This document shows, piece after piece, positions 16,739 through 21,776 of a DNA stretch of 64,000 nucleotides. The position numbers and the translations under genes were made by a program. The stretch's first letter is position 1, and each line of letters opens with the position of its first letter. The stretch is taken from positions 1 to 64,000 of the forward strand of contig JAJCXM010000014.1 of assembly GCA_029263455.1 (NCBI GenBank). Reading direction: 5' to 3'. Below the pieces are notes generated by a model, which did not search any database, had not been told where the DNA came from, and saw only the letters and a program-made list of their open reading frames with translations. Origin of the DNA: Holophagae bacterium (lineage in GTDB: Bacteria > Acidobacteriota > Holophagae > Acanthopleuribacterales > Acanthopleuribacteraceae).

Positions 16739-19048
16739 ATGAGCGCCAAGACGATCTTAGTCATTGACGATGACCGAAAACTGATATCGCGAGCCCAGAA
16801 ATTCGCAAAAACTGTGGCCTTCCAAGTAAATGTGGCTAACTTGGGTAACGAAGGTTTACAGATCGCCGAATCGACGGCTCCTGACCTCATCATTCTGTGT
16901 GCAGAACTGGCCGACATGAACGGCTATATGGTTTGCAAGAAACTGCGTGACAACGCTGTCACTCAGAAAATACCCATTATCTTCACGTCTTCAAAGGCGA
17001 AGCAGGAAGATTTTGACAAACACAGCAAACTAAAAGCTCGAGCTAATGAGTACATACTGAAACCGGTCACTAAAGATCAGTTGCGAACAAGTATCGGCGA
17101 CGCCTTGGGTGTTGATCCTTCCTCTTTTGAAAACGATACCGGTGACTACACAGATTTGTCGGAAATTTTTGAATTTGAAGACGAGAATGTCCCAAAAGTC
17201 ACACCTTTCGGCGAAGAATCTGAGGCCAGTCCAAAGACTGGGGATTCGTCTTTGGAAGAAGAATTAGCGAGCAAAGAGCGCGAGCTCGATTATCTGAGAA
17301 AAGAAGTCGCTGCATTTAAGCCCTTCATGAATCAGATGAATCATTTGGAAAAAGAGCTTAAGAAAAGCAAAGATGAACTGCAAAATGCGTTGGCCTCTGC
17401 TTCGGATGGCCAAGCATCTGATGAACAAAAGCAGGAAATTGATCGCCTCCAGCAAGAAAAGAAGACGCTTGAGCTTCAAAACCAAGAACTTGACGATAAC
17501 TTAAAGACCCAGCACGAACAACACACCGCGCAGATAAACGAATTACAGGCAGAGTTAGAGACGCAAGTTCACGAGTTGAGCTTGCAAATTCAAAAGGCAA
17601 CACAAGAACGGGATCAGATCTCTGCTAGTGGAGATCGGGCAAGTGGCGAACTTGACGCTCGTGCTAAGGAAGTTGAAGAGTTAAAGCTTCAACTCAAAAA
17701 CATCGAATCCAAGCAAAGTGAACAACAAGATATATCGTCAAGACGGCAGGAAGCGCTGCATGAAGAGCTAAGTGAACTTGAACAGGCTTTGGAAGATTCA
17801 AAGAATAACAATATGGCGCTGGAAGCTCAGCTTAAAGATAAAGAGCAGGCCGCCGAAGCCTTCCAAGCAGAGTCGAAGCAGTTACAAAGTGAATTGGACC
17901 ACCTGCAGCATAATTTACAGAGCAAGGACGACGAATCAAAACAGGCTCGAGAAGAGATGTCACGTTTAAGGGAGAGCATCAAAGAAGAGCTCCAAGGCGA
18001 CATCGAGCAGTGGCAAACAAAAACAGAAGGCTTGGAATCACAGGTCGGTTCACTAGAATCTCAGCTCATTGAGAAACAGTCCGCACTAGATGCAGCTTTC
18101 GGGACGCTTGAGACCACCAAACAAGAGTTAACAAAAACGGCTCAGGAAGAGCTGGAAAACAAAGAAGCCGAATGGCAACTTGCTCTTGACTCCCTCCAAG
18201 AGGAGCTCGAATCAGAGCGCACCCAGAACCAAGAGACACGAACCGCGACTGAAGAGAAACTTACCGAATTCAAAAGTAAATCAGACCAGCTTGAGGAAGA
18301 GCTTGAAAAGGCCAAATCAGATCACCAAAGCGAAGTAGAAAAAATCAATTTGACTCACCAAGAAGAACTTGAGCGCTACCTACAAGCAGTTACGGCTCAA
18401 AAAGGCGAGCTTAAGAATCAACTTGAGCAAGCTGAGGAGCGCAGTAACCAGTTACGAATCGAGTTGACCGAGCACAAATCTCGAGTAGACGAGCTTGAAT
18501 CTAAGAGTCAGCAAATAATTGTCGACTTAAAAACAGAGCTCGAGCAGTCACAGCAATCTGCCCAGTCAGCGCAATCAGAACTCTCAGCTTTGCAAACGGA
18601 AAACCAGAACATCCAAGCATCGTTAGATGAAGCGTTAGCTCAAGCCGAACGCGGACGTACCTGGGCAGTGGAGTTGCAAGAAACGCGCACTTTCTTAGAA
18701 GAAGCGGAAACGCAATTGGCGGCAGGTCACGTGGACGCCGACAAACTGCGGCTAGAGCTAAGCGAAGTGAACGCCGAAATGACGACAGTCAGAGATCAGC
18801 TTGAGACCAGTCAGGAACAGAAAACGGCTTATGAAGCGGATCTAAAGCAGTTACAGTTAAGCCTCGCATCTATGCGTCAAGAGAATGAAACAGAAAATGA
18901 AAAAAGCGCAGAACTAAATGCCGAAGTCGAAAAGTTACGATTGGGCCACGAAACATTAAAAGCGCGCATCGAAAGAGCTGCGTTCGCCCTTGAGAGCGGA
19001 CTTCGTGAACTTCAGGGCACGACAGAAGAATTGACGTTCGAAGAATAG
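16739..19048 (+). CDS. Pseudo-receiver domain protein with a very long coiled coil
   Basis: Residues 1-122 form a CheY-like receiver (ILVIDDDRKL at the start, Thr in IIFTSS, Lys in YILKPV). The residue at the phospho-acceptor position is Cys54 (LIILCAELADMNG aligned to LIILDxxxPxMNG; codon TGT at 16898-16900), so phosphorylation there is not expected. An acidic linker follows, then about 600 residues of Gln/Glu/Lys/Leu-rich heptads forming an extended coiled coil. The architecture resembles FrzS of Myxococcus, a polarity/motility protein that also has an atypical receiver and a coiled coil. A similar spatial scaffold role is inference. GAGG lies 3 nt before the ATG. It ends two nt from convergent recR. 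Confidence 0.85.
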   Translation: MSAKTILVIDDDRKLISRAQKFAKTVAFQVNVANLGNEGLQIAESTAPDLIILCAELADMNGYMVCKKLRDNAVTQKIPIIFTSSKAKQEDFDKHSKLKARANEYILKPVTKDQLRTSIGDALGVDPSSFENDTGDYTDLSEIFEFEDENVPKVTPFGEESEASPKTGDSSLEEELASKERELDYLRKEVAAFKPFMNQMNHLEKELKKSKDELQNALASASDGQASDEQKQEIDRLQQEKKTLELQNQELDDNLKTQHEQHTAQINELQAELETQVHELSLQIQKATQERDQISASGDRASGELDARAKEVEELKLQLKNIESKQSEQQDISSRRQEALHEELSELEQALEDSKNNNMALEAQLKDKEQAAEAFQAESKQLQSELDHLQHNLQSKDDESKQAREEMSRLRESIKEELQGDIEQWQTKTEGLESQVGSLESQLIEKQSALDAAFGTLETTKQELTKTAQEELENKEAEWQLALDSLQEELESERTQNQETRTATEEKLTEFKSKSDQLEEELEKAKSDHQSEVEKINLTHQEELERYLQAVTAQKGELKNQLEQAEERSNQLRIELTEHKSRVDELESKSQQIIVDLKTELEQSQQSAQSAQSELSALQTENQNIQASLDEALAQAERGRTWAVELQETRTFLEEAETQLAAGHVDADKLRLELSEVNAEMTTVRDQLETSQEQKTAYEADLKQLQLSLASMRQENETENEKSAELNAEVEKLRLGHETLKARIERAAFALESGLRELQGTTEELTFEE

Positions 19049-19049
19049 A

Positions 19050-19652
19050 TCAATTCATGGGTCTTCGGTTATCCATAGCGCTGGCCATGGTGACGTCGTC
19101 ACAATAATCCAGCGACCCGCCCATGGGAATCCCGGTTGCGATTCGAGTCACCTTGACGTTTCGAAGCTTTAACGATTCCGCTAAAAAGGACGCAGTAGCC
19201 TCGCCTTCAACGGTCGGATTAAGCGCTAGGATGACTTCGTCATAGGAGCCTTGAGCCACGCGGTCTAGAAGTTCATCATATCGAAGTTCTTTTGGGCCGA
19301 TTCCGTGCATCGGTGACAGAACCCCCTGCAGCACATGGTAGAGGCCCAAGTAACGGGCTGATCGTTCGATGTTCTTGATACTCGATGCATCCTCGACGAC
19401 ACACAACAAAGAGGGATCACGTCTCGTGTCAGCACACAACAGACATAATTCAGCCGACGAAAAGTTAAAACAGCGTGAACAATACCTGAGCTTCTCTTTC
19501 AATGCCCTGATACTTTCGCTTAGTTCAAAAGCGTATTCGTTTGGCAACTCCAAAATACGATAAGCCATCCGCTGGGCGGACTTCTTACCGACCCCGGGCA
19601 TTTTGCTAAGTAGGTCGATGACGCGGTCTAGGTGATCACTACCTTGATTCAT
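19050..19652 (-). CDS. recR: Recombination mediator protein RecR
   Basis: This 200-residue ring-forming protein works with RecF and RecO to load RecA at gaps. It contains the N-terminal helix-hairpin-helix (MPGVGKKSAQRMAYRIL), the four-cysteine zinc finger (YCSRCFNFSSAELCLLC), a Toprim domain with VVEDASSI and the C-terminal GIPMGGSLDYCDDVTMASA segment. Start and stop of recR and ebfC overlap by 4 nt. It is the last gene of the tRNA-Ser, SRP RNA, dnaX, ebfC, recR cluster. Confidence 0.96.
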   Translation of the reverse strand: MNQGSDHLDRVIDLLSKMPGVGKKSAQRMAYRILELPNEYAFELSESIRALKEKLRYCSRCFNFSSAELCLLCADTRRDPSLLCVVEDASSIKNIERSARYLGLYHVLQGVLSPMHGIGPKELRYDELLDRVAQGSYDEVILALNPTVEGEATASFLAESLKLRNVKVTRIATGIPMGGSLDYCDDVTMASAMDNRRPMN

Positions 19653-19960
19653 GCACCAAACATCTTCGATATCATAGAAGGGTCGATGCCAGCCATGGCA
19701 GATCCAAACCGCTGCTTTAATTGGTTATTGACATCTTCATAAGCGCGGTTGAGGGCCGCTTGGATTAGGTCCGCTAGCATATCTGCATCGCCAACAGCGG
19801 CTGGACTCAAGTCCAACTTGGTCAATTCTTTGTGGCCATTGACCACCACTCTAACAGCACCACCGCCACTACTGGCTTCCACGACCATGGATTCCAAATC
19901 TGAACTCAGCTGTTTTTGCATGCCTTGAGCTCGTTCCATCATCTCTTTAAAATCAAACAC
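19649..19960 (-). CDS. ebfC: Nucleoid-associated protein of the YbaB/EbfC family
   Basis: I place the start at a GTG at 19960 preceded by GAGGAG with 7-nt spacing, giving 103 residues that begin FDFKEMMERAQGMQKQL, the normal start of the family. The GTG lies inside the end of the dnaX tau frame, and the two overlap by 8 nt. The protein is a small dimeric DNA-binding factor with a long N-terminal helix and the VNGHKELTKLDLSP strand region. Longer frames back to 20059 would intrude on dnaX and are unlikely. Confidence 0.92.
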   Translation of the reverse strand: MFDFKEMMERAQGMQKQLSSDLESMVVEASSGGGAVRVVVNGHKELTKLDLSPAAVGDADMLADLIQAALNRAYEDVNNQLKQRFGSAMAGIDPSMISKMFGA

Positions 19961-21538
19961 CGTCTTGCTCCTCATTCTCGAGGGGTTCGCACTTGATAAT
20001 GCTGCCCTTGAATAGTTCCAAAGCATATCGCACTTTCGGATCGTTCTGGACAAAATCAAGTGCCTGACTCACCTCTCGTTGGGCTTCAGCGACAGCCGGG
20101 TTTTGTGCTATTGCGAATCGGATTTCCAACTTACGACCCATCCATTCTCGACAAGTGTGCCTTAGTGCTTCCAAATGATGGTCACTCTTAAGCATGGGAA
20201 TAATGTTTTGATCTGCCTCGTCAAAAACGACCTCAACCTGGTTCGCTGATACTTGGGTCGAAAATGCTCTAGCCAATAGCGAGGCTGTTGCAGGTTTCTT
20301 GTAGTCGTTAAGCGCTTCAATCCAGCCAGAAAAATCATTCGCTTCTGACTTGATGGGCGGCGTTACGTTAGTTTTTTTTTTGCGGGCTCAACCACGGCTG
20401 CAGTCGGTAATTCCTGGATTTGCGCGAGCACTTCTTCGAGCGGCGCAAGTTTCCGAATCTCGATCAATTTCAGCAGGATCAGTTCCAACGCGAATCGCGG
20501 TTCAAAAGCGTGCCGAAAAATCGGCTCCTGTGTGACTAATACATCCAATACACGGACAAGGTCGCCGCGACTAAACTGATCAAGCAAGTCTTGATGTCGT
20601 GTTCCATGTCCATAACTACGTTGCACCAGCTCACTGGCGTCTTCGACGCTCTTCATGACCAGTGAATCTCGCACAAAAGCTGTCAACGCATCGTAAACTT
20701 GCTTTAAGTCGTGCCCAAAATGAACCAAATCCGAGATTCGACTCAATACTTGAGCAGCTGACGCCTTAAGAACGCCTTCCAGTAAATCCAACAGATTTGC
20801 GTCTTCAACGACGCCCAAAATGGACTGCACATCCAAACGAGTCATACGCTCGCCGGTCGCTGCCACCACCTGATCAAAAACGCTCAGAGCATCTCGCATC
20901 GAGCCGCCTGAAGCTTGGGAAATGAGCGCAATAGCTTCAGCCTCCACGTCCAAGCCTTCTGACTCGACGATTTCCTGAAGCCTCTGCTCGATTTTGAAGA
21001 GAGGGATCTGGCGAAAATCGAATTGTTGTGTGCGTGAAAGAATGGTGGCCGGGATCTTGTGCAGCTCTGTTGTCGCGAGAATAAAGATCACGTTTTCCGG
21101 CGGTTCTTCTAACGTCTTCAACAACGCGTTAAACGCACTTGTTGAAAGCATATGTACTTCATCGATAATGTAAATCTTGTTGCGATCGCGCGCCGAATTG
21201 TACCTAATCCATTCACGCAACTCTCGGATGTTATCCACGCTATTGTTTGACGCCGCATCAATCTCAACCACGTCGAGCGAGTTGCCATCACGAATTTCTG
21301 TACAGGAAGAACAGGTTAGACAAGGAGTTGGCGTTGGGCCCGTTTCGCAATTCAAGGCTTTGGCTAGTATTCGGGCAGTTGATGTCTTACCCGAACCACG
21401 TAGCCCCGAAAACAAAAATGCGTGGTGAAGCCTACCAGAAGTAATCGCGTTTTTTAACGTTCGCGTGATTACATCCTGGCCAACCAATTCATCGAATGTT
21501 TGTGGGCGCCATGTTAACGCCGTTACGCGTGATCCCAT
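19953..21538 (-). CDS. dnaX: DNA polymerase III subunits tau/gamma, needs -1 frameshift at an A10 run
   Basis: This is the clamp-loader ATPase. The first frame (21538 to 20363) gives a gamma-like product of 391 residues. It has Walker A GLRGSGKTSTARILAKALN, a four-Cys zinc module (CETGPTPTPCLTCSSC), DEVHMLS and the sensor-2 and collar domains, and stops right after Pro-Ala-Lys-Lys-Lys-Leu-Thr. At 20381-20372 the mRNA has ten A in a row. Re-reading one A (-1) enters a frame that continues 139 codons to 19953 and encodes a DnaX domain III-like C-terminus (SGWIEALNDYKKP, CREWMGRKLEIRFA). The full tau would be about 528 residues. The start ATG has AAGGAG upstream. It follows SRP RNA and precedes ebfC. 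Confidence 0.92.
20363..20383 (-). other. dnaX slippery site followed by zero-frame stop
   Basis: The minus strand reads GC, then ten A (20381-20372), then CTAACGTAA. In the zero frame this is GCA AAA AAA AAA CTA ACG TAA. A -1 slip gives ACT AAC GTA and onwards into the tau frame. E. coli uses a shorter A6G heptamer with ribosomal slippage, and Thermus dnaX uses a long A run with transcriptional slippage. The ten-A run here is compatible with either. I do not see an obvious strong stem-loop just downstream. Confidence 0.8.
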
Positions 21539-21576
21539 GGGCTCCTTCCCTTGCGTCTGTACGCCTGGATTAACAA

Positions 21577-21663
21577 TCAGACACCGGCACACATAGACAA
21601 AAGCTTAGTGCTGCTCCCGTCAGGGCCTGACACGGTTCACAAGCCAATGTTGCCGATGCCTGA
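21577..21663 (-). ncRNA. ffs: Signal recognition particle RNA, small 4.5S type
   Basis: A 13-bp end-to-end helix (TCAGGCATCGGCA with TGCCGGTGTCTGA) encloses the conserved SRP core GTCAGGCCCTGACGGGAGCAGC. This aligns position by position with the classical GTCAGGTCCGGAAGGAAGCAGC. The apical loop is UGAC, a URRC-type tetraloop, instead of the usual GGAA. The RNA binds Ffh for co-translational membrane targeting. Ends are approximate (about 87 nt). It lies between tRNA-Ser and dnaX, a commonly seen order. Confidence 0.88.
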
Positions 21664-21685
21664 CTCTTATGCCAGACATACACAT

Positions 21686-21776
<91 letters not shown>

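Follow-up and report, generated by a model that had tools for sequence, protein, structure and literature searches.

Tau, a product of dnaX, keeps the replicase assembled and is probably essential. It is normally the unshifted product of the gene, the second, gamma, being made in E. coli by a ribosomal -1 shift at A_AAA_AAG with an upstream Shine-Dalgarno (SD) element and a downstream stem-loop, and in Thermus thermophilus by slippage at a run of nine A's (A9) (PMC1088944). A 2016 review describes a minority of bacteria in which tau itself arises from the shift (PMC5009743). In Antonov et al. (2013), 17 dnaX genes from 12 genera were reported to require recoding for tau, nine of them with ten A's, and transcriptional realignment, or slippage, was proposed for these two-ORF genes (PMC3711429). 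The dnaX locus analyzed here shares the A10 junction and the reversed roles of the two products with this last group.

The window, a 64,000-nt stretch of contig JAJCXM010000014.1 from a Holophagae bacterium, carries on its minus strand, in the direction of transcription, tRNA-Ser(GGA), the small SRP RNA gene, dnaX, ebfC, and recR (Table 1). From its ATG at 21538, the zero frame of dnaX runs for 391 codons, and the mRNA across the junction reads GAG CCC GCA AAA AAA AAA CTA ACG TAA. The ten A's and the zero-frame stop reached through CTA ACG TAA are thus as the earlier note had read them, and so is the -1 frame, which stays open for 139 codons as far as the TGA at 19955-19953, inside the overlap with ebfC starting at GTG 19960. 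Adding one A to the run gave a tau of 528 aa in the computed translation. Elsewhere in the window, positions 16739-19048 of the plus strand encode a 769-aa protein in which a response-regulator receiver domain precedes a very long coiled coil; we take it to resemble the FrzS/AglZ-type motility proteins.

Table 1. Features of the dnaX region, in positions of the window
Feature	Position	Strand	Remarks
tRNA-Ser (GGA)	21687..21776	-	
Small SRP RNA gene, upstream of dnaX	21571..21666	-	Rfam RF00169, 57.9 bits
dnaX zero frame, gamma-like product, 391 aa	20363..21538	-	AAA+ ATPase (PF13177), lid, domain III (PF12169)
A10 slippery run (T10 on the plus strand)	20372..20381	-	
Zero-frame TAA ending gamma	20363..20365	-	Two sense codons past A10
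-1 frame, putative tail of tau, domain V-like	19953..20372	-	139 codons + TGA
ebfC (YbaB/EbfC family)	19649..19960	-	Probable GTG start, overlapping the tau stop
recR	19050..19652	-	ATG overlaps the ebfC stop

Pattern searches found A10 or T10 once in the 6.25-Mb assembly, at the dnaX site, and counted 1310 runs of A7, 191 of A8, and 23 of A9. Extrapolation from these shorter runs gave about 3 A10 expected genome-wide and about 2e-5 for any given 100-nt hinge. Because of this low expectation, and because exactly A10 was found at the dnaX hinge in all seven genomes of family f1, the family of the source genome (G000 to G006, five genera, with G000 the source assembly), the run at this place is beyond chance. 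The zero-frame DnaX product shares 66-80% identity with those of the other six members. In each of the seven genes a zero-frame stop lies no more than two sense codons past A10, and the -1 frame is open for 133-180 codons; the stop varies by genus (TAA, TAG, TGA) while its position is unchanged. Within the family A10 occurs in all three codon phases, and therefore it is the length of the run that has been kept, not its phase. A single uninterrupted dnaX frame, a hinge lacking the run, or a run of 9 or 11 A's, any of which would have spoken against the earlier note, was found in no member of family f1.

The tail encoded by the -1 frame matched the NCBIfam gamma/tau model PRK14965 over the model's final 130 positions (E 1e-5), and in a profile comparison it matched the tau tails of other families with 98.4% probability (E 6e-15). 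Because of these two matches, the tail is identified by sequence as the C-terminal, domain V-like region of tau. The earlier note had mistaken it for a domain III-like sequence; domain III (PF12169) occupies residues 235-373 of the zero-frame product. The search of the tail against Pfam gave no real match, a profile search by sequence found no solved structure, and the predicted structure of the tail alone had a mean pLDDT of 37. Judged by its substitutions the tail is under purifying selection: differences among family f1 members are concentrated at third codon positions (P = 9e-9 to 1e-3), and dN was lower than dS in the three pairs with measurable dS (dN/dS ~0.2-0.46).

The best explanation, to which a probability of about three in four is given, is that dnaX yields a 391-aa gamma and a 528-aa tau through programmed recoding at A10, with slippage of RNA polymerase giving tau. 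Gamma would come from transcripts that keep the ten templated A's and from those with nine, because the zero and +1 frames both stop within a few codons. Where RNA polymerase lengthens the run to 11 A's by one addition (or to 14, and so on) or shortens it by two, the AAA+ and domain III part would be joined to the -1 tail as tau, so that tau, normally the unshifted product, would here be the slippage-dependent one. The earlier note had proposed both the pair of products and a Thermus-type mechanism in preference to the E. coli design; the first is supported by the layout and the selected -1 tail in all seven genomes, and the second gains support short of proof. Three features favor slippage during transcription: the length of A10 is fixed while its codon phase takes all three values; both non-tau frames close early, which would be useful where the register changes in several ways but is unnecessary for a ribosomal -1 shift; and neither a well-placed SD-like element nor a consistent stem-loop accompanies the run. 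Shuffling within each genome of family f1 gave P values of 0.0004-0.10 for the early closure of both frames, which is weakest in G002 (10 codons). The family f1 genes had no SD-like stimulator in good register at A10, and downstream of it no consistent stem-loop, with z mostly between -1 and +1. As in Thermus-type slippage, a homopolymer of at least nine is combined with close stops in both non-tau frames; a zero frame encoding tau, a further mark of that type, is lacking here, where the frame ends at 391 aa, and is present in family f3. Against this reading, an A_AAA_AAA heptamer is available in every phase, through which a ribosomal -1 shift could give tau here and gamma in family f3, and the direction is -1 in all family f1 members, although these count as a single evolutionary event. 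That slippage occurs, that it is transcriptional, and in what ratio it would give the two products are inferred from the sequence.

Ribosomal -1 frameshifting on A_AAA_AAA or A_AAA_AAC within the run, giving tau from uniform transcripts, is unlikely though far from negligible. An in-phase A_AAA_AAN heptamer and the -1 direction are found in 7/7 family f1 genes, the 2016 review attributes the reversed arrangement to frameshifting by the ribosome, and it mentions a Chlorobium candidate with stimulators like those of E. coli (PMC5009743). Besides lacking the placed SD-like stimulator and the consistent downstream structure, however, the family f1 sites do not have the E. coli-optimal A_AAA_AAG, and the review rates their heptamers, A_AAA_AAA and A_AAA_AAC, as far less prone to shifting in E. 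coli (PMC5009743). A shift by the ribosome would also leave the closed +1 frame unexplained, and ten A's are more than a heptamer requires.

The other alternatives are very improbable. A sequencing or assembly error hiding a true run of 9 or 11 A's, or a decayed dnaX that has lost tau, might be suspected since homopolymers are error-prone and the source assembly is in 40 contigs; it was rejected, being strongly disfavored by A10 in 7/7 assemblies from five genera, among them the single contig of G003 (11,786,365 bases), by the selection on the tail, and by the different stops that adjoin the run at one position in different genera. Equally improbable is that the tail is translated on its own as a small protein, from an internal start or by reinitiation past the gamma stop: a TTG ORF of 107 aa is listed within the tail, but comparison across family f1 found no internal start with a plausible SD consistently ahead of the conserved tail block, the first in-frame start of G000 and G001 falls within that block, and A10 would go unexplained. 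Phase variation at the DNA level, with the tract changing length between cells and tau being switched on and off, would draw on the slipped-strand mispairing by which long homopolymers can mutate, but contingency tracts are expected to vary, exactly ten A's were found in 15/15 genomes of two families, and switching off a probably essential tau is unlikely.

The second of these two families is f3, of the same class, in which A10 lies at residue 363-364 in 8/8 dnaX genes where the hinge was reached. In f3 it is the zero frame that encodes tau (498-518 aa), and the two remaining frames close within five codons. A maximum-likelihood tree built from the N-terminal part that the sequences share grouped families f1 and f3 at 90/87, and f3 is likely the sister family of f1. 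The simplest history suggested by these sequences is a single ancestral A10 with later indels nearby that switched the tau frame. The balance tips slightly toward a run kept at exactly ten since the common ancestor of f1 and f3, with the surrounding indels flipping the default subunit; against this, support for the grouping is only moderate, and the runs could have separate origins.

Families of the phylum other than f1 and f3 were represented by 66 complete dnaX genes, 17 from family f2 of the same class and 49 from others. The hinge carried no run of nine or more A's in any of the 66; an A_AAA_AAG site with a stop close by in the -1 frame was present in one. Short dnaX frames in the phylum were considered as further split genes and rejected, those of G031 and G045 being compact single frames and that of G047 being cut by a contig end. 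Two genomes of family f2, each about 1.2 Mb in size (L147 and L149, genus g12), encode DnaX in a single frame of only about 406 aa that lacks almost the whole tau C-terminal region, keeping a short final motif, LLKMTGGTI, common to relatives; these reduced genomes may have lost tau function.

In a named collection, A9-A10 was found in the hinge of 8/77 complete dnaX genes, one of which (Chlorobiaceae, L060) had the two-frame layout. Single-frame dnaX genes with A9 or A10 in the hinge and the other frames soon closed (L043, L055, L062, L078, L079, L085, and L087) belong to Bacteroidota, Verrucomicrobiota, Ignavibacteriota, Desulfobacteraceae, Spirochaetota, and Planctomycetota. Because of these genes, spread over several phyla, Thermus-type dnaX slippage may be commoner than reported. 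The dnaX gene of one member of Desulfobacterales (L034) carries A10 at residue 524, about 36 codons ahead of its stop and outside the usual hinge.

The position of the ebfC ribosome binding site within the tau-only part, also claimed in the earlier note, holds for this genome, where the SD GAGGAG lies at about 19973-19968; the coupling of ebfC and recR translation to the slippage region does not extend safely to the family. The ebfC start is probably the GTG at 19960, assigned by comparison with the MDFQ/MDLQ starts of relatives, and recR overlaps ebfC by ATGA. Ribosomes making gamma would stop about 400 nt upstream of ebfC, and therefore any coupling depends on the translation of tau. Since the spacing from the tau stop to ebfC differs among relatives, for example +15 in G002 and +3 in G004, such coupling may not hold family-wide.

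Like E. coli dnaX, the gene has two products, a shift in the -1 direction, and a site past domain III; unlike it, the locus has no A_AAA_AAG, upstream SD, or stem-loop, its heptamers being A_AAA_AAA and A_AAA_AAC, and gamma and tau have exchanged roles. With T. thermophilus it shares a long A run in the hinge and the immediate closure of both non-tau frames, but the products are exchanged: unshifted reading gives tau in Thermus, where slippage makes gamma, and gives gamma here. The genes of family f3 are laid out like that of Thermus, with A10 in place of A9. The Chlorobiaceae gene (L060, a MAG) likewise has A10, a zero frame that stops after about 400 aa, a -1 frame encoding tau, and closure of both non-tau frames; it comes from an unrelated phylum and probably had an independent origin.

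The closest match is the two-ORF dnaX of Antonov et al., an architecture with A10 that is already published (PMC3711429). The likeness extends to the -1 shift between two ORFs, a zero frame that gives gamma with its stop at the site, a poly-A stretch (7-10 A), a conserved tau C-terminus downstream, and the need of a shift for tau. In comparison to the set in that paper, the locus probably represents another lineage, the trait is present in every family f1 member examined, the codon phase of the run takes all three values, and in a likely sister family the roles are reversed. Automatic annotation may label such dnaX genes as truncated or frameshifted, and yet tau, probably essential, seems here to depend on a homopolymer "error." The fixation of A10 together with the role reversal in f3 supports the idea that at about 50% slippage one nucleotide can swap the default product (PMC5009743). 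If a run of ancestral origin did have its roles flipped, the two families would form a natural experiment in which slippage efficiency lies near the level at which gamma and tau become interchangeable. What appears new here, from the sequences compared, is the family-wide fixation of A10 and the use of one run by likely sister families with the roles of its products reversed.
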